From positions 1 through 25,105 of IMG/VR virus record IMGVR_UViG_3300017748_000126: a stretch of DNA of 25,105 bases; one strand, written 5' to 3'. The translations under genes and the position numbers were made by a program. The notes below the pieces were generated by a model that made no database searches, was not told the DNA's origin, and saw nothing but the letters and a program-made list of their open reading frames with translations. This document shows, piece by piece, positions 4,360-20,329 of the stretch (its first letter is position 1; each line of letters begins with the position of its first letter). Source of the DNA: a virus.

Positions 4360-4986
4360 TTATGATGCAAGGGTTGCTACATACACTGTTGCAGAATTTG
4401 CAGATCCTGATTGTGGAGTAGCTCCAACAGATGGTGTATATAAACCTGTGCTTATTAATTTATACTTATAATTTGTATTAGGTGTTAAGTTAGTGACATC
4501 GTATGAAAGTGTACTAGCTAAATTTGTTGTTAATGTTGTGACTAATGAATATGTAGTTGAACCAAATGGTGCCTGATAAATTGAAACAGAAGTAACAGTA
4601 CTAGAAGGTACTCCCCAATTAAGTTTTAAACTTGTACTAGTTACATTATCAATAGTTACAGGTGTTATAGCTAATTGTGCAGAAACTATTGGACCAGCTG
4701 GATCTGTTACACGTAATGCTAGTTTTTGAAGCATTTTTAATAAATTGTCTCCTTGATGTACTGAAAATTCACTAGCAGGATCAGAACTTGTTCCTGCAAC
4801 AATTTCTGCACCCCAAACATTAGTTTGTCTTCCAGAGTTTTTAAAACAATCTACTACACATTCATAACAATATATTTCTTCACATGTACTTGTTGTACAA
4901 TCAGTAAAAGTACAAGGTGTTGTTAAACCATGATCATTACAAGCACATGGTGATGATTTAGTATGTCCGCATCTATTACAAGCCAT
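4360..4986 (-). CDS. Appendage protein: Cys-rich N-terminus plus fibronectin-III-like domain (208 aa)
   Basis: A two-part protein. Residues 1-47 hold ten cysteines (3, 6, 14, 16, 25, 30, 35, 40, 43, 47) and His8 and His19, starting MACNRCGHTKSSPCAC, which suggests a zinc-binding or disulfide knot module. Residues about 98-205 form one fibronectin-type-III-like beta-sandwich: SLKLNWGVP early, then the LTPNTNYKYKLIS strand late. Between them, G79-D80 and K88-L89-A90 match the spacing of a similar element near the N-terminus of the 1180-residue neighbour. The likely role is a small virion appendage or adapter attaching to the tail or to other fibres. It begins 18 bases after the 1180-residue gene and is the last gene before a strong terminator. 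There is no signal peptide, as expected for a virion part assembled in the cytoplasm. The domain calls come from sequence pattern only. Confidence 0.82.
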   Translation of the reverse strand: MACNRCGHTKSSPCACNDHGLTTPCTFTDCTTSTCEEIYCYECVVDCFKNSGRQTNVWGAEIVAGTSSDPASEFSVHQGDNLLKMLQKLALRVTDPAGPIVSAQLAITPVTIDNVTSTSLKLNWGVPSSTVTSVSIYQAPFGSTTYSLVTTLTTNLASTLSYDVTNLTPNTNYKYKLISTGLYTPSVGATPQSGSANSATVYVATLAS

Positions 4987-11486: not shown

Positions 11487-12035
11487 TTAACAACAGATAT
11501 CACATGTAATTTTCTTAAGCTTAGTTTTTGCAAAGTTATAAAGTTCCATACCTTCATTTGGACTTTGACAAAATTCAACTTTAGCTTTTGCAGCATCTAT
11601 TAATGTTCTAATATAATACATTTCAGATAAAAGATCTTTTTTTGTTGAGGAAGGTTCACATGCTTGTACATCTATATCACATAATTTTTTATAGTATGCA
11701 CTTAATAATTCTGTAGTTCTTAAGTAATTATATTCAACATAAACTTTATCTGTAGGAGATACTTGGTATTTAATGATATATATACCATCTGCCAATGCTC
11801 CAACAGTTGAATTACAACTTGTTGTTTGCACACCTAATGCACATGGAGTAAATTTTAAATTAAAATCTTTTTGAACTTTAGTTAATACAGGTGCTGTAAA
11901 ACCTGGAGGTGTTATCAATAATTCACCACAATTAAAAGGAATATCATCTGTATAAACACTTGTGTCTACCACATTTAATACAGAACAATTTGATGTTTCA
12001 ATAACATCTAGACTCAAAATATGTTTAGCTGCCAT
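11487..12035 (-). CDS. Cys-containing virion protein, likely appendage adapter (182 aa)
   Basis: A 182-residue protein of two halves. Residues 1-105 are beta-rich and contain NCSVLNVVDTSVYTDDIPF, then CGELLITPPGF, then a TDKVYVEYNYLRT strand. Residues 105-182 are helical (LLSAYYKKLCDIDV, LLSEMYYIRTLIDAAKAKVEF) and end with the Cys-rich tail KITCDICC. I recall similar proteins beside tail genes in Bacteroidota phages but cannot attach a firm function. Its place between the 502-residue structural protein and the 944-residue appendage protein, 11 bases before the latter, suggests an adapter or chaperone for the appendage. It begins a transcription unit: a terminator and a promoter-like motif lie directly upstream. 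The coding call is firm and the role is a guess from context. Confidence 0.78.
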   Translation of the reverse strand: MAAKHILSLDVIETSNCSVLNVVDTSVYTDDIPFNCGELLITPPGFTAPVLTKVQKDFNLKFTPCALGVQTTSCNSTVGALADGIYIIKYQVSPTDKVYVEYNYLRTTELLSAYYKKLCDIDVQACEPSSTKKDLLSEMYYIRTLIDAAKAKVEFCQSPNEGMELYNFAKTKLKKITCDICC

Positions 12036-12062: not shown

Positions 12063-12082
12063 TTCATTAATAATATACAAAA
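12063..12082 (-). promoter_or_regulatory. Promoter-like motif before the 182-aa gene
   Basis: On the minus strand TTTTGTATATTATTAATGAA matches the exact 20-base form at 17 of 20 positions; the first 12 bases are identical. It lies 28-47 bases upstream of the ATG and about 20 bases after a terminator tract. Twenty bases after its TTTG comes TACTTTTT, close to the Bacteroidota -7 box TAnnTTTG. Confidence 0.6.
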
Positions 12083-12102
12083 AATAACAGATTAAATGAA
12101 AT

Positions 12103-12129
12103 AAAAAAGGAGCAGATTTTATCTGCCCC
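12103..12129 (-). terminator. Rho-independent terminator after the 502-aa gene
   Basis: On the minus strand GGGCAGAT and ATCTGCTCC fold into a stem of about nine pairs with one G-U pair, then six T (12108-12103). Because of the wobble pair, the stem is better in the minus-strand transcript than in the plus. It starts 45 bases past the stop codon of the 502-residue gene and precedes the promoter-like motif at 12063-12082. Confidence 0.87.
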
Positions 12130-12174
12130 CTTTTTAAACAATGTATATATTGTATTAATTACTAATACTTGATG

Positions 12175-13683
12175 TTATGCTGGCACACCACCTTTAGCTT
12201 TAAGGTCAGCTACACTTGTAACAAAACCATCTCCAGCTAAATTTGGAACTTTAGCAGCCGTTGCTATTGCTAGCCATTCTGCATCAATATCTACACCACC
12301 ACTACATTTAGTATAAATTCTGTAGTGATACTGATCATTATCAAATACACCAGACGGGTTATTAAACCTAGGTACATTGTGAATCATGTGATAAACTTTG
12401 AAATGACCATTACAAGCACTTGTAGTAGCATCTCTACCTAATGCATCAACAATACCACCCATACCTTCTTGTTGTCTGAATCTAGCAGAATCTCTGTTAC
12501 CTTGATTGTAAGGAGATTGTCTGTAGTTTTCAGTCATAAGAATGTCATTAATACCTGTCTCAGAAGATGTTCTTCTTTGAGCAAAATCTGCTGTTTGATT
12601 AGCACCAGCACCTGCAGCACCGTCTGTAACAAATCCTTGACAAGCAACACATGGTACACCCGCTTCATCTTGTAAATCAACAGATGTTTTAAGACCTCCT
12701 AATAAATAGAAATCTCTAGTATCAAATGAACAAGAACTAAACTGAGTTTGTAATTCACAACTTGTTTTTAATGTAATAACTACTGCCCATATATTTTTAC
12801 TAAAATGAGAAGCAACACCAGTTGCACCTGCAGCAATTCCTGTAAATGTATCTGCACCAGCTGTAGTTGTACCAACAACACCTCTAGCACCTCCATTATA
12901 AACAGCCATTTCTACAGCTTGTCCAAGAGCAGTTGTAGGATCTACTAAATCTGCAGGTTGAACTGTAGGAGCAGCTAATCTATTTACATAAAGATGTGCA
13001 GTACCTAATTTACTTAAGATAGGATCGTTATTAAATTGATCTCTTAAGTTAATAGCTACAATAGATGGAGCAATACCAGAGTGACCAGCTGTTCCAGTAG
13101 CATCTAAATCTTGAGTTAGACAACACATATCTACACCATTTGCTGGAAAAGCAGCATTAGCTCTTGACGCAGCAGTTGGCATTGGTAATGAGCCAGATAA
13201 AGAAGCATAAGCATTATGATTTAATAATCTTAATGCAGCAGTTCCTTTAATATCTACTCTAAAAATTGGATCTGTTCCACATGGAAAACATGATTTAGAT
13301 ACAGTACCAGCAGCACCAGTACTAGTACTATCAGATAAAATAGGTGCAACTTGTATTGCAAATCTACCTGAAGTTTCATTAGCACAATCTGTTATCCACA
13401 TATCAGAAATATATTTGTACATAATCATTTTTGATTTTGTACTTTCTTTGTAACCCCCATGCCCAGGGTTGTTTCCGATTGTATCATTTGCCATAAAAGC
13501 TCCCTGTGCTAAATAAAAGCCAGCTTCTTGTGCACCAACATTAGCTGAAGCAACTTGTTTGTAAGCACCGTTAAGTACCGCAAAGTCACCAGCAGTTGAT
13601 AAATTAGCTGAAGTTTGAGCAGGGTTATCTTTAAAAGCAGCTAGGTAAAATGCTTTACCAAATGCATGATTAAAATAAGCCAT
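12175..13683 (-). CDS. Abundant-looking virion structural protein of unknown type (502 aa)
   Basis: A 502-residue soluble protein beginning MAYFNHAFGKAFYLAAFKDN. It is rich in Ala, Gly and Thr and carries about a dozen Cys, including CFPCG near residue 137 and CCLTQD near 194. Several segments look like beta-strands of a structural subunit, such as KNIWAVVITLKTSCELQTQF (about residues 295-315) and GHFKVYHMIHNVPRFNN (about 430-445). It has its own exact promoter-like motif, a structured leader and a strong terminator, so it is a one-gene unit, and its base composition is less A/T-biased than its neighbours, like the capsid gene. Together these suggest a protein made in many copies, such as a tail tube-like, sheath-like or head-fibre subunit. 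The N-terminus reminds me of tail tube proteins of other phages, but crAss-like phages known so far have short tails, so I leave it unassigned. Confidence 0.85.
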   Translation of the reverse strand: MAYFNHAFGKAFYLAAFKDNPAQTSANLSTAGDFAVLNGAYKQVASANVGAQEAGFYLAQGAFMANDTIGNNPGHGGYKESTKSKMIMYKYISDMWITDCANETSGRFAIQVAPILSDSTSTGAAGTVSKSCFPCGTDPIFRVDIKGTAALRLLNHNAYASLSGSLPMPTAASRANAAFPANGVDMCCLTQDLDATGTAGHSGIAPSIVAINLRDQFNNDPILSKLGTAHLYVNRLAAPTVQPADLVDPTTALGQAVEMAVYNGGARGVVGTTTAGADTFTGIAAGATGVASHFSKNIWAVVITLKTSCELQTQFSSCSFDTRDFYLLGGLKTSVDLQDEAGVPCVACQGFVTDGAAGAGANQTADFAQRRTSSETGINDILMTENYRQSPYNQGNRDSARFRQQEGMGGIVDALGRDATTSACNGHFKVYHMIHNVPRFNNPSGVFDNDQYHYRIYTKCSGGVDIDAEWLAIATAAKVPNLAGDGFVTSVADLKAKGGVPA

Positions 13684-13739: not shown

Positions 13740-13752
13740 GTAGCAAAGCTAC
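13740..13752 (-). promoter_or_regulatory. Small hairpin next to the promoter-like motif of the 502-aa gene
   Basis: GTAGC-TTT-GCTAC on the minus strand is a perfect 5-base-pair stem that starts inside the last three bases of the motif. It would sit at the very 5' end of the transcript. The segment also contains TAGCTTTG, a perfect match to the Bacteroidota -7 consensus TAnnTTTG, though the TTTG upstream is only 13 bases away instead of about 19-21. Confidence 0.4.
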
Positions 13753-13769
13753 ATATATAATATACAAAA
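13750..13769 (-). promoter_or_regulatory. Promoter-like motif, exact copy, before the 502-aa gene
   Basis: TTTTGTATATTATATATGTA on the minus strand, identical over 20 bases to the copy at 19813-19832. It lies 67-86 bases upstream of the ATG at 13683, within the 109-base gap after the 261-residue gene. Exact conservation of 20 bases in two unrelated gaps, each upstream of a structural gene, argues for a shared late promoter. Confidence 0.65.
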
Positions 13770-13792: not shown

Positions 13793-14578
13793 TTAGTTAT
13801 TTTTCTCAGCTGATGCAGATCCTCTTATATATTGATTTATATTATCAATATCCCCAGCTATAATAGAAACAGCTTCATCAAGTATTAATTCTACTACATC
13901 ATCTTTAAATTCACATTCAATATCTTCTGGTGATGTTACTAATGTATATGGATCTGTACAACCAGCTAATTCAATATATCTTGGATGTCTATAGTATGTT
14001 AATATAGGATTTACTATTTCAAAGTCTTTTTTATATATTCTAACTCTATCTCCTTGCATAGTGCAGTATGTTTCACCCCATTCAAAGTCTGGTCTTTTTA
14101 ATGGATCTCTCATATATAAATCAACATTAGCTTCTTCTGCTAAATATACAGTCATACTTCTACCTGCTTCTCTTTCTATAGGTATGTATTCTGGTCTTTC
14201 GTCTGGTGGAGCAATATTTTCTTCACCATCTATTATTTTAACCAAAGGACAACATTCTGTAATTGCTTCTGTTGTAATTCTTTTATACTCTAAATAATTT
14301 TCAGGAAACCAATCAGGAACACTTTCTATATAATCTCTAAAATTAATAAATTCTAATCCTAAATCTGTTATAAGAGGTTGAAGATCATCTATTCTTTTTT
14401 TAGACATTTCATCTCCTTCCTTATACATATTATTACCATGCAATTGTCTTCTACACCATTCTAATTGTGCTTTATTAAAAGCCTCAACAATTTGCCAGCA
14501 TTCTATATTATCATAGTCATTGCTGGCAATTTTGTTAAGCCTTTGTCTAAATTTAATTTGTAGTGTAGTATTATTCAT
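13793..14578 (-). CDS. Connector/neck ring-type virion protein (261 aa)
   Basis: I start this gene at the ATG at 14578, 2 bases after the previous stop, not at an in-frame TTG at 14593 that would overlap it. The N-terminus, LQIKFRQRLNKIASNDYDNI then CWQIVEAFNKAQLEWCRRQL (residues about 6-46), is a helical hairpin like those of head-tail adaptor proteins and matches a conserved crAss-like protein from memory. Then come IDDLQPLITD, a long beta-rich middle (about 80-220) with RVRIYKKDFEIVNPILTYYR, and a helical end with VELILDEAVSIIAGDI. It most likely forms one of the rings of the portal-tail connection. It is in one unit with the 371-residue gene, with no terminator visible after it. The ring number in the phiCrAss001 scheme is not determined. 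Confidence 0.82.
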   Translation of the reverse strand: MNNTTLQIKFRQRLNKIASNDYDNIECWQIVEAFNKAQLEWCRRQLHGNNMYKEGDEMSKKRIDDLQPLITDLGLEFINFRDYIESVPDWFPENYLEYKRITTEAITECCPLVKIIDGEENIAPPDERPEYIPIEREAGRSMTVYLAEEANVDLYMRDPLKRPDFEWGETYCTMQGDRVRIYKKDFEIVNPILTYYRHPRYIELAGCTDPYTLVTSPEDIECEFKDDVVELILDEAVSIIAGDIDNINQYIRGSASAEKNN

Positions 14579-14580
14579 AA

Positions 14581-15696
14581 TTACATATTCCAATAATATT
14601 CAACTTGACTAAGTAAAGACATTACATGTTCTTCATTTAAAGGATTTTTACACCACTCTAAACAACCTGCTGGTGTTTTACCCATTTTTAAAGATCCAAA
14701 GTATATCCAACCATCAGCTTTATTTGTGATTAATGAATATCCACTTGCATCTTTAATAATAGCTTTAAGCTTTAGATCTTCCATACTTAATCTTGATGCA
14801 TCTAGAAATGTTTGTGCACTTCTTCTTGCATTACTATCATATCCATCACCATGAATAAATGAATCCATGTTTTCATATATTATGTCATTAGCTGTAGATT
14901 TATTGTACTGTGTACTATTAGCATCTACAATTTTTGCTACATAAAACAATTTTGTATTTTGTGAATCATACATTGTTGTTAATGCTGCTAATGCTCTATT
15001 TCTTAATTTAGAAATTTCTGTTCTTGTACTAACTGTATCTTCAAGTTTATCTAAATAAAATTTATAACTTGTTCTACTTTTAGCTTGTTTTAAATTTTTA
15101 GCTACCATAGAAAATCCTCCTGCTTCAATTGCATATATTTTAATTAAATCATAAGGATCACTTGATGGATCTAAATATAAAGGTTCATTACTTAACCTTA
15201 TACTAATTTTACTCCAAAAATCATAATTATCATGTCTTAATAATTTAACTTTATTCCAAAATTCTGGATCTTCAGAGTCTAATATATTAGCTGCTAAATC
15301 TCTTTCAAGTGTAGCAACTGCTTTTCTTATTTCTCTTATTTTTGCTTCCCTTTTAACTGGTGGAAGTTTTCTAATTTCAGGTGAAAATTCATTTAAACCT
15401 GTTACATATCTTTTAATACCATTTACTTCAAGACACGTTAGCTCTTCTTCATGAACTACTCCTTCAAAAAGTGACATGCTATAATTTTCTAATCCCATAT
15501 TTTCTGTATCACCATCAAAAAATGTACGTATTGCAATTGATTGATTTTTACCTTCTTGATATTTTTCAATCATTGTAACTTCTTTAATTGCTTGTTCTGT
15601 ATACGTTGGTTCTACAATATTAGTTACAGTTTCTTTAACATTATCTGTTAATGCTGTTTCAACTATTTCTTTGGATTTATTTTTTTTCTTTGCCAT
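14581..15696 (-). CDS. Conserved crAss-like virion protein following the capsid gene (371 aa)
   Basis: A 371-residue protein. The first 45 residues are Lys-rich then polar and probably flexible. Segments I associate with a conserved Crassvirales structural family are MSLFEGVVHEEELTCLEVNG (about residues 74-93), FSPEIRKLPPVKREAKIREI (about 103-122), DPYDLIKIYAIEAGGFSMVA (about 181-200) and TSYKFYLDKLEDTV. The C-terminal part, GWIYFGSLKMGKTPAGCLEW, looks beta-rich. It lies between the major capsid protein and a connector protein, as a ring or head-completion component would. There is no promoter-like motif in its leader; transcription probably continues past the hairpin after the capsid gene. 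The coding call is firm and family recognition fairly so; function is inferred from place. Confidence 0.82.
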   Translation of the reverse strand: MAKKKNKSKEIVETALTDNVKETVTNIVEPTYTEQAIKEVTMIEKYQEGKNQSIAIRTFFDGDTENMGLENYSMSLFEGVVHEEELTCLEVNGIKRYVTGLNEFSPEIRKLPPVKREAKIREIRKAVATLERDLAANILDSEDPEFWNKVKLLRHDNYDFWSKISIRLSNEPLYLDPSSDPYDLIKIYAIEAGGFSMVAKNLKQAKSRTSYKFYLDKLEDTVSTRTEISKLRNRALAALTTMYDSQNTKLFYVAKIVDANSTQYNKSTANDIIYENMDSFIHGDGYDSNARRSAQTFLDASRLSMEDLKLKAIIKDASGYSLITNKADGWIYFGSLKMGKTPAGCLEWCKNPLNEEHVMSLLSQVEYYWNM

Positions 15697-15739
15697 TTTA
15701 TTATTGGTTTATTAGTTTATAAAAATTTAAAAATAATAT

Positions 15740-15763
15740 AAGGGAGGATTTTACTCCTCCCCT
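15740..15763 (-). terminator. Hairpin (partial terminator) after the major capsid gene
   Basis: On the minus strand GGGAGGA and TCCTCCC pair perfectly around a GTAAAA loop, and a G-U and an A-T pair can extend the stem. What follows, TATATTATTTTT, is A/T-rich but not a clean T run. The hairpin starts 17 bases past the capsid stop. No promoter-like motif lies before the next gene, so it probably lets part of the transcripts through. Confidence 0.75.
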
Positions 15764-15779
15764 ATAATACATATGAATA

Positions 15780-17417
15780 TTAGAATGAACCTCCAGTAAC
15801 TGGATTTTTCATTACAATCTTCAAGACTTTGGTCGGGTCTTTTACCCATATAGAAGGCATGGTTTGTGTCATCATTACACGGTATCCATTAAAGTTACCT
15901 GATGAAGCAAATCCTTGCGTTCTTCCCATATAGTCCATAGTTCCATTTTGATAGAACCATTTCAATTGATTATCCCAAGAAAGTTTTAACAAGTGAATGT
16001 TATCATTTCCTGACTCAGTGATGTCAAAGATAATAAAGCTATAAGAGCTTAATGGTCTTCCATCAATAAGTGGATTCTCAATATCATTAGTGTGTAAATT
16101 ATCAAAAGCTGGATTAAGTACAAATCTAACATTAGCTAAGAAAGGAATTACGTAAGATGTGAATGCATATCCAAATCCTAAGTCCATACCTTGCCCTGTT
16201 ACCATTCCATTGTTGTCAGCATTAATTACACCACCAATAGTTGTAAGTCCTGCTGCTTCTTTTGCAATAGCATCATTTACTAATTTCATACCACCAATTC
16301 CAGTTTGTACAATTAATGTACGTTTTGGATCTGGTCCTTCTAATTCAACTTTACCTTGATAGAAGTTATAAAGTTCAGTTTTGAACATATCTAAACTGAA
16401 AGAAGACTTATTATAAATTCTTTTGTAAGAATTGTCTAATTGCTTCCAAAGACCTACAGACATTCTGATGTCATCTGGTCCATCTTGTTTTACTCTACCT
16501 CCGTGTCCCCACATTAAGTATGTTTCTATATCACTTGCAATTTTGTTCAAGTGAGCAGCTTCAAGATTAGTTAAGAATGTTCTTGATAAATTTCCGTTAT
16601 CAAAAGCTCTCTTTACATAATCAGCTCCCATAATTTCTACCATACTTTCTAATGAAGATACTGAAGGATCTACGTCTTGATCAAAAGTTCTCCAAATCTC
16701 TGTAACTGGAATAGAACCATCAGCATTCATTCCTCCTTTAAGCATTAAGTCTGCTCTAGAAGAAATTGAATAATGAACGTGTGCTTCAGCTCCTCCTACA
16801 AAGTTGTAGAATTCACGGAAACCTGTTCCTGTTGTAAGATCTGAAAATCTTTCACCGTACTCTCCTCTTGCAGAACCTTTTCTGAAGAATTTAGTACCTG
16901 ATTTTAAGTAGCTATCTTTTAAACCTTGTGTGTTATTACTATTTACAATTTGAACAGTATAAACAAATCCGTCACCTGATGGTAAAATATCATCAGCTGT
17001 AACGTAAAGTTCAATACCATTATACTTGTCATAAGTAATAATATCACCATGTCCAAAAGCTCTCTTACTTAAAAGAATTTTGAATGTTTGACCATCTACC
17101 CCTCTTGTTGTACCAGCAGCGTCTGTGACGCCATCTATTACACCTAAAGAGTAAGGAAGGTCTTGCGCAATGGGAGTTTGCCATTTATACTCACCTCTAG
17201 CATTATCCACCATAATTGTATTATTACCACCAAATGAAGCTAATTGATACAAAGGCATTTCTACCTTTTGTGTCATAGCCCATAAGTCTACAGGACCCAT
17301 ATCCATAGGTTCTGCAGATCCTAACATTTGTGTTAGGTGGTAAGAATCAACATGTGAACTAGCTTTGTAGTTAGTATCTCTGAGGAAAATCCCATTATTT
17401 AAAACTGGAGTTGCCAT
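15780..17417 (-). CDS. Major capsid protein, HK97-type (545 aa)
   Basis: A 545-residue protein recognised as the crAss-like major capsid protein. The N-terminus reads NYKASSHVDSYHLTQMLG, PMDMGPVDLWAMTQKVEMPL (residues about 17-54), then an insertion-like segment. RGEYGERFSDLTTGTGFREF (about 184-203), EAHVHYSISSRADLMLKGGM and a central helical spine with IASDIETYLMWGHGG follow. The C-terminal part has SWDNQLKWFYQNGTMDYMGR. It is expected to build the icosahedral shell around the packaged genome. Its place after portal and scaffold-like genes fits the family. The composition is less A/T-biased than in most neighbours, as in strongly expressed genes. The 47-base leader is A/T-rich with no Shine-Dalgarno, and a hairpin follows the gene. 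No protease gene is visible nearby, so N-terminal processing cannot be judged here. Confidence 0.93.
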   Translation of the reverse strand: MATPVLNNGIFLRDTNYKASSHVDSYHLTQMLGSAEPMDMGPVDLWAMTQKVEMPLYQLASFGGNNTIMVDNARGEYKWQTPIAQDLPYSLGVIDGVTDAAGTTRGVDGQTFKILLSKRAFGHGDIITYDKYNGIELYVTADDILPSGDGFVYTVQIVNSNNTQGLKDSYLKSGTKFFRKGSARGEYGERFSDLTTGTGFREFYNFVGGAEAHVHYSISSRADLMLKGGMNADGSIPVTEIWRTFDQDVDPSVSSLESMVEIMGADYVKRAFDNGNLSRTFLTNLEAAHLNKIASDIETYLMWGHGGRVKQDGPDDIRMSVGLWKQLDNSYKRIYNKSSFSLDMFKTELYNFYQGKVELEGPDPKRTLIVQTGIGGMKLVNDAIAKEAAGLTTIGGVINADNNGMVTGQGMDLGFGYAFTSYVIPFLANVRFVLNPAFDNLHTNDIENPLIDGRPLSSYSFIIFDITESGNDNIHLLKLSWDNQLKWFYQNGTMDYMGRTQGFASSGNFNGYRVMMTQTMPSIWVKDPTKVLKIVMKNPVTGGSF

Positions 17418-17464: not shown

Positions 17465-17860
17465 TTATGCTGCTGCAGGTTCAAAATACCCTATAATGAT
17501 TCTACAGTATCCATTTGTTATATCTGCTGTACCTACTGTAACATTCATTGCCGCAGTACTTGTAGTTACTACTGGTCCAAGTAATGTTGAAAAAGGCACT
17601 GTTGTTGACCTTTCTGCAATACTCATTGCTTTTGTTACAGTGACACCGCCAATAAATACTTGAAGAGTGTTTGACCCTCCAGCAAATGTTACTTTAGTAT
17701 CAACCTTAACAGAATCAATCAAAGAACCTATTGGAACTACTGTGCTAGAAACTAATGTATGAGGAGATCCAGCTGTTGTTGCTGTATCTACCATAGCACC
17801 TGTTCTAGTATCATAGATTCCAACAACGTACTTTTTTTGTATATTATTTGTTGTTGCCAT
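17465..17860 (-). CDS. Small beta-rich virion protein, candidate decoration protein, paralogue 3 (131 aa)
   Basis: A 131-residue protein rich in Thr, Val, Ser and Gly, with alternating hydrophobic strands and no helix-rich part. Its middle, VPIGSLIDSVKVDTKVTFAG then GSNTLQVFIGG, closely follows the 139-residue neighbour's LPLGAIIVDLTIENVRTVFS then GGTPTLKIKVGS. Its end, CRIIIGYFEPAAA, matches the neighbour's VAATIGYFLPADY. So these two are paralogues, and the 135-residue protein at 19922-20329 belongs with them. Small single-domain beta proteins beside a capsid gene are often capsid decoration or auxiliary proteins, which is the likely role. It starts 56 bases after the 47-residue gene and ends 47 bases before the capsid gene, and is probably co-transcribed with it. 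Confidence 0.8.
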   Translation of the reverse strand: MATTNNIQKKYVVGIYDTRTGAMVDTATTAGSPHTLVSSTVVPIGSLIDSVKVDTKVTFAGGSNTLQVFIGGVTVTKAMSIAERSTTVPFSTLLGPVVTTSTAAMNVTVGTADITNGYCRIIIGYFEPAAA

Positions 17861-18062: not shown

Positions 18063-18482
18063 TTATGTAATTTGTCCATTATCTAAATCCATATAATCTG
18101 CTGGTAAAAAATAACCAATAGTTGCAGCAACTGATCCAGCTGTTGTTGTATCTGAAAATAAAAAATTAATTACTCTATTATTATCTGTTATTTTTTTCGG
18201 AGTAGGTGTAGGATTTACTGCATTATTAAGTGTTTTATAGTCATTCCATACTGTAGCAGCAGCAATTTCATTACTTCCTACTTTAATTTTTAATGTAGGT
18301 GTTCCTCCTGAAAATACTGTTCTTACATTTTCAATTGTGAGATCTACAATTATAGCACCTAAAGGTAAAGATGTTGTTGTTTTAGGAGTTACTGCTGTTG
18401 TACCACCATCTACAAAAAAATCCCAAACTGCTGATGCATATTGTTTTTGTCTATCTACTACTGGAGTTATTTTAAATGCCAT
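18063..18482 (-). CDS. Small beta-rich virion protein, candidate decoration protein, paralogue 2 (139 aa)
   Basis: A 139-residue beta-rich protein that links the three paralogues. Its start, AFKITPVVDRQKQYASAVWD, aligns with SFKVTPITERKVKYKTITWN of the 135-residue protein, both followed by an Asp-Gly pair. Its centre aligns with the 131-residue protein (LPLGAII against VPIGSLI, then FSGG against FAGG), and its end, ATIGYFLPADY, with both. A C-terminal tail, MDLDNGQIT, is extra. Decoration or auxiliary capsid protein is the likeliest role, because the gene lies between scaffold-like and capsid genes. It starts 10 bases after the scaffold-like gene and is followed after 2 bases by the 47-residue gene. 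The assignment to a decoration role is inference. Confidence 0.8.
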   Translation of the reverse strand: MAFKITPVVDRQKQYASAVWDFFVDGGTTAVTPKTTTSLPLGAIIVDLTIENVRTVFSGGTPTLKIKVGSNEIAAATVWNDYKTLNNAVNPTPTPKKITDNNRVINFLFSDTTTAGSVAATIGYFLPADYMDLDNGQIT

Positions 18483-19921: not shown

Positions 19922-20329
19922 TTATTGTTGTTTTTCTAAGTAACCAACAGTTAAAGCAAAATGACCAGCATTTAACTCACCTGGAAACAATATTATTTGT
20001 AATTCACTACCAAATCTTCTAATTGTATTTATAAAAGAAAGATTATAAACACCTGCTGAATAAGAAGCAGGAAGAAAATTAACAAGACTACCAAAAGCTG
20101 TATCTCCATAAAGTAGACATAAAGGTGCTGCTCCAACTGATGTAACAGGTTCTATTATTTCAAGCGTTAAAGAAACTGCAACATTATCAGGAGATGTAAT
20201 AGCAGGATGTAATGCATTTTTATATTTAAAAGCACCTGAAGAAACCATATTACCATCTGTTTTTTGATTCCATGTAATTGTTTTGTACTTTACTTTTCTT
20301 TCTGTAATAGGTGTAACTTTAAAACTCAT
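19922..20329 (-). CDS. Small beta-rich virion protein, candidate decoration protein, paralogue 1 (135 aa)
   Basis: A 135-residue protein with alternating hydrophobic strands (VSLTLEIIEPVTS, LQIILFPGEL) and the ending HFALTVGYLEKQQ, which matches the TIGYFLP and IIGYFEP ends of the 139- and 131-residue proteins. Its start, SFKVTPITERKVKYKTITWN, matches that of the 139-residue protein at about half of the positions. It is the most diverged copy in the middle. The ATG overlaps the portal stop as TAATG, so it should be translated in step with the portal, unlike its two relatives next to the capsid gene. It may sit at the portal vertex or serve as a capsid decoration. The 136-base gap that follows holds the promoter-like motif and a palindrome TGTTTTATAAAACA at 19907-19920. 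Confidence 0.8.
   Translation of the reverse strand: MSFKVTPITERKVKYKTITWNQKTDGNMVSSGAFKYKNALHPAITSPDNVAVSLTLEIIEPVTSVGAAPLCLLYGDTAFGSLVNFLPASYSAGVYNLSFINTIRRFGSELQIILFPGELNAGHFALTVGYLEKQQ

Follow-up and report, generated by a model that had tools for sequence, protein, structure and literature searches.

The minus-strand gene at positions 12175-13683 of the 25105-base virus record analysed here (the whole stretch is hereafter called the window) raises the question of which part of the virion its 502-residue product builds. An earlier note, made from the DNA letters, described this product as a structural protein, separately transcribed and probably made in large amounts, for which crAss-like phages offer no clear counterpart, and considered a tail tube, sheath or capsid-fibre subunit, which would give the lineage an unusual particle. 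Gene order, fold, sequence and conserved transcription signals together give us high confidence that the gene instead encodes the auxiliary capsid protein (AUX) of a marine crAss-like lineage and forms a one-gene transcription unit.

A crAss-like phage with an unnamed protein family

The window encodes a crAss-like major capsid protein (MCP; Pfam Crass_capsid, E 1.6e-33), a portal protein (phrog_6547, 8e-97), the ring proteins R1 and R2 (Pfam CrAss_Ring_1, 5.9e-10; CrAss_Ring_2, 8.8e-17) and a TerL that matches crAss-like terminases, and thus belongs to a crAss-like phage. The 502-residue ORF is real, with an ATG start conserved among relatives and an N-terminus (MAYFNHAF) common to all rows of a 32-row alignment of relatives. 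Relatives were found in IMG/VR in 422 of 451 scanned stretches, and in at least 576 of 599 in a wider scan. Sequence searches with the protein or its family profile gave no match in Pfam, PHROGs or the PDB, and tblastn over annotated phages returned a single chance match (E 6); the family is large, unnamed and marine, and lies outside Pfam and PHROGs. Campylobacteraceae and Pseudomonadales, named in the MAG titles of two matching genome contigs, were not accepted as hosts because of possible binning errors.

Two of the loci with relatives differ in other respects. One relative (L049) lies on a viral contig of 245,646 bases (IMGVR_UViG_3300030098_004828), about twice as long as the remaining long contigs, which measure 110-120 kb. 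In another locus (L018), the TerL, portal, 430-aa and 371-aa genes are each broken into several ORFs while the MCP and AUX genes are whole; these splits may be sequencing errors or recoded stops.

Gene order places the protein in the AUX slot

The gene lies in a conserved block of late genes, listed here in the order of transcription:

15780..17417, minus strand: major capsid protein, presumed partner of AUX (Pfam Crass_capsid)
14581..15696, minus strand: 371-aa protein in the gp33 slot (by gene order)
13793..14593, minus strand: 266-aa tail ring protein R3/R4, upstream of the AUX gene (phrog_29507, E 6.9e-8; weak Pfam CrAss_Ring_3_4 match)
12175..13683, minus strand: very probable AUX gene, 502 aa, counterpart of PhicrAss001 gp36
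11487..12035, minus strand: 182-aa protein (g182) in the tail-hub slot, downstream of the AUX gene (by gene order)

The same order (MCP, gp33-like, ring R3/R4, AUX, tail-hub slot) is found in PhicrAss001, whose virion structure identified gp34/35 as rings, gp36 as AUX and gp38/39 as the tail hub (PMC10172136). It is also found in phi14:2 (slot protein g088), phi4:1 (gp061), phi17:2 (gp063), the epsilon phage csAssE-Sib and Leptolyngbya phage Lbo-JY46, the last with a g182 homologue at the same place; the phi14:2 and phi4:1 slot proteins were annotated from virion MS/MS. Of 110 loci, namely those of 109 relatives plus that of the window, 102 have the 182-aa gene next to AUX on the downstream side; on the upstream side, 71 have R3/R4 itself and 37 a small ORF that follows R3/R4. 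The window protein and its relatives thus occupy the AUX slot. The location between connector and appendage genes described in the earlier note agrees with this arrangement, R3/R4 lying on one side and fibre or appendage genes on the other.

Elsewhere in the window, the region from portal to MCP contains, on either side of or near the 430-aa gene, three small minus-strand genes for proteins of 135, 139 and 131 aa (19922-20329, 18063-18482 and 17465-17860, respectively). The ends of these proteins are similar (GYLE, GYFLP, GYFEP), as are two of their starts (FKVTPITER, FKITPVVDR), and they may thus be diverged paralogues; the position of their genes would be compatible with a role as head fibre or decoration proteins. 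A 208-aa protein (g208; 4360-4986, minus strand) contains a fibronectin type III domain (Pfam fn3, 1.8e-7).

The predicted fold is that of gp36

The predicted structure of the window protein (pLDDT 74) gave no significant match in Foldseek, and we therefore also modelled a compact relative with fewer insertions (L063, 395 aa, pLDDT 81.9). The fold assignment rests on this relative and on comparison with VIA-align, in which the window model itself ranked chain 7qof_a, the "Auxiliary capsid protein gp36" of PhicrAss001, first (Z 14.9 across 306 of 333 residues), compared with Z 8.1 for the best chain from outside the PhicrAss001 virion. The compact relative matched the same chain in both programs (Foldseek E 9.2e-12, prob 1.00; VIA Z 17.5 across 299 residues) and had no other significant Foldseek match beyond that virion. 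The likeness to gp36 (PDB 7QOF, 7QOH, 7QOI, 8CKB) thus covers nearly the whole chain at a structural identity of ~10-14%, and the predicted models show a PH-like domain interrupted by an FD (FliD-like) domain:

12574..13380, minus strand: FD-like (FliD D2/D3-like) insertion domain, residues 102-370, approximate (VIA matches to FliD D2/D3, which in the 502-aa protein are limited to this inserted part)

Against the predicted structures of BFVD, the compact relative had 14 matches at E<=0.001, after which E jumped to 0.035. The named ones came mostly from crAss-like phages and included proteins of phi14:2, phi17:2 and cr130_1 whose lengths (338, 650 and 355 aa) equal those of the slot genes. The best was an uncharacterised 500-aa protein of Virus NIOZ-UU157 (A0A7S9STR3; E 8e-28, 28% identity), which is probably a direct member of the window family.

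A head fibre or decoration protein resembling gp21 or gp29 would likewise probably be exposed on the capsid surface, and the large Gly-rich insertions of some relatives would suit such a role. Yet gp21 and gp29, of 97 and about 120 aa, are small proteins with other folds, encoded between portal and MCP, whereas the fold, size and slot of the 502-aa protein are those of AUX, which makes this alternative very improbable. Still less credible is a tail tube or sheath subunit, and with it an unusual tail: the insertion domain (residues about 103-369) does match Mu tail/baseplate and cyanophage A-1(L) sheath-tube chains (VIA Z 7-8), but these matches span only about 95-115 residues of the FliD-like insert at VIA's stated background level, no tail tube or sheath core fold is among the listed whole-chain VIA matches, and the phage has the R1, R2 and R3/4 ring proteins of a short crAss-like tail. 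The N-terminus, said in the earlier note to recall tail tube proteins, is where the gp36 match begins (residues 4-6 of both proteins). Thus, among the options raised there, and with the fold search that it proposed, tube and sheath become very unlikely and the capsid option comes nearest, and the slot and fold supply the crAss-like counterpart that had been thought missing. The 502-aa protein is most likely a very diverged marine AUX, an identity that draws on gene order, fold and sequence alike.

Sequence links to larger slot proteins

Although gp36 (333 aa) shares the slot and fold, it has no match to the window protein at the sequence level, and hhalign detected no sequence similarity of the family to gp36, to an alignment of Steigviridae AUX proteins or to phi14:2 g088. 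As AUX is defined by its fold and its place in the virion, sequence similarity to gp36 is not a defining feature. A direct link was found to the larger slot protein of Lbo-JY46 (XAI97412.1, 631 aa), which the family profile matched in pairwise hhalign comparisons at E 5.6e-9 (global) and 2.8e-6 (local), with a score of 48; none of the 75 other ORFs compared, from three reference phages, scored above 9. This protein in turn matches the slot proteins of the epsilon phage csAssE-Sib (WOZ57255.1, 662 aa; E 3.5e-30) and Cellulophaga phi17:2 (E 2.5e-22; gp063 and its phi4:1 counterpart gp061, 650 aa). Judged from these alignments, the window family is homologous to the Lbo-JY46 protein and, through it, to the phi17:2 and epsilon proteins. 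The records consulted for these phages call their slot proteins only "structural" or "hypothetical".

Conserved cysteines and variable insertions

Seven cysteines of the FD-like domain (C132, C135, C187, C188, C318, C345 and C348) are nearly invariant: each occurs in 53 to 56 of the 56 relatives compared. In contrast, gp36 has one cysteine in all, and Steigviridae AUX proteins have 0-2; the slot proteins of Lbo-JY46, the epsilon phage and phi17:2 are cysteine-rich (8-21). The seven residues are probably joined in disulfides or bind a metal, which would stiffen the shell. In eight relatives (L014, L024, L031, L034, L040, L043, L054 and L070), the FD region also carries a Gly-rich insertion with the repeated motif GSGY...GD(V/I)(L/I)T (columns about 290-420 of alignment A1), possibly an exchangeable surface domain.

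A probable one-gene transcription unit

The elements that would set the AUX gene apart as a transcription unit, and those of its neighbours, are:

13757..13769, minus strand: promoter-like motif TTTTGTATATTAT of the AUX gene (exact match; conserved in relatives)
13740..13752, minus strand: predicted 5' leader hairpin GUAGC-UUU-GCUAC, 4 nt past the motif (structure; conservation and covariation in relatives)
12102..12136, minus strand: intrinsic terminator of the AUX gene (z -6.5; conserved in relatives)
12070..12082, minus strand: promoter-like motif TTTTGTATATTAT ahead of g182 (match; conserved in relatives)
15737..15766, minus strand: terminator after MCP (conserved in relatives)

The window contains four exact copies of TTTTGTATATTAT, whereas windows simulated with a second-order Markov model contain 0.05 on average. 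Three precede the AUX gene, g182 and the 430-aa gene; the fourth (17835-17847, plus strand) lies inside the 131-aa gene, opposite to all late genes, and is probably chance or antisense. With at most one mismatch, the motif is found upstream of the gene in 38 of 66 non-redundant relatives vs 0.5% in Markov controls, and it is poor (four mismatches) in four of the 66 upstream regions. In a set of about 51 non-redundant relatives, it precedes, at the same threshold, AUX (32/51), g182 (46/51), an IHF-like gene (18/20) and g1180 (20/34), and is absent before the portal, MCP, gp33-slot and R3/4 genes. Terminators follow AUX in 50/51, MCP in 36/50 and g208 in 20/22 relatives, and none was found after the other genes tested in them. 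The earlier claim of separate transcription is thus supported.

A terminator follows the slot gene in PhicrAss001 as it does in the window; T-tailed hairpins, judged by eye on sequences and folds, occur at this place in eight other crAss-like phages (PhicrAss001, phi14:2, Lbo-JY46, csAssE-Sib, phi17:2, DAC15, cr126 and cr124). In six of these eight, the slot gene starts only 25-42 nt after its neighbour (31 nt for gp36, 25-31 nt for Lbo-JY46 and phi17:2), whereas in the window a promoter motif and a leader hairpin precede the gene, so a promoter dedicated to AUX seems to be a feature of the window's lineage. We found no relevant literature on the late promoter of crAss-like phages.

The compositional likeness to the capsid gene reported earlier holds for overall GC (0.370 for AUX vs 0.352 for MCP), which is tied to an Ala/Gly content of 24%, but not for GC3 (0.115 vs 0.223), and the nearest gene by codon usage is portal. 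Codon usage was accordingly rejected as support for high AUX expression. The earlier reading of a probably abundant structural protein is supported, by analogy with gp36.

The leader hairpin

The structured leader proposed in the earlier note emerges only from comparison, as the window's leader alone is no more structured than chance (z 0.09). Among 47 distinct AUX leaders, 35 form a hairpin of at least 5 bp just past the motif (7.3 in shuffles, maximum 14) and 12 lack it; the corresponding numbers are 9/44 for g182 leaders (3.3 shuffled) and 3/28 for other motif sites (2.8). The paired positions covary, with 31 cells changed on both sides vs 8.6 in shuffles and a covariation score of 0.498 vs 0.204, in a set of 32 leaders picked for having the hairpin, a choice that favours pairing; the count over 47 leaders is the unbiased test. 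The covarying 5' hairpin is AUX-specific. Rfam gave no convincing match for leader or terminator.

As the inverted repeat is palindromic and lies at or just past the presumed transcription start, it could instead be a DNA operator for a phage regulator. However, the stem sequence varies with compensation so that pairing is kept, and the loop varies in length and sequence, which fits an RNA structure better than a protein-binding sequence; we consider an operator unlikely. An RNA hairpin would probably stabilise the message or aid expression.

Implications for the particle and for AUX diversity

If the marine protein behaves like gp36, one AUX copy would sit on each MCP subunit, amounting to about 540 copies if the capsid is T=9 (placement and number inferred from PMC10172136). 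At local three-fold sites, the N- and C-terminal parts of the split PH-like domain would pack against the insertion domain of MCP, the FD domain would touch the MCP A-domain around each capsomer, and AUX would form an outer shell with pockets holding the head fibres. The demand for hundreds of copies would explain a one-gene unit with a TTTTGTATATTAT promoter, a short 5' hairpin and a strong terminator. More tentatively, the gene may be a private high-output unit in which a lineage-specific stabilising hairpin sets AUX dosage apart from the other late genes, and the cysteines of the protein may staple the coat into a shell tougher than in gut crassviruses. Apart from a thicker coat rich in cysteine, nothing requires the particle to be unusual.

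One solved virion led to the description of AUX as a unique feature of most crassviruses (PMC10172136). In the genome paper on epsilon phages, many structural proteins could not be assigned (PMC11054128). The details new here are the shared motif, the AUX-specific hairpin, the post-AUX terminator and seven cysteines without Steigviridae equivalents. Together, a single promoter motif, three strong terminators and a coat-gene-specific covarying 5' hairpin outline, in testable form, how late genes are transcribed in an uncultured lineage. With the AUX assignment, a large marine family that Pfam and PHROGs lack would gain a function. The chain of sequence similarity would carry this function on to slot proteins of 630-660 aa in epsilon, Lightbulbvirus and cyanobacterial crAss-like phages, and AUX would then span crAss-like phages far from the gut.
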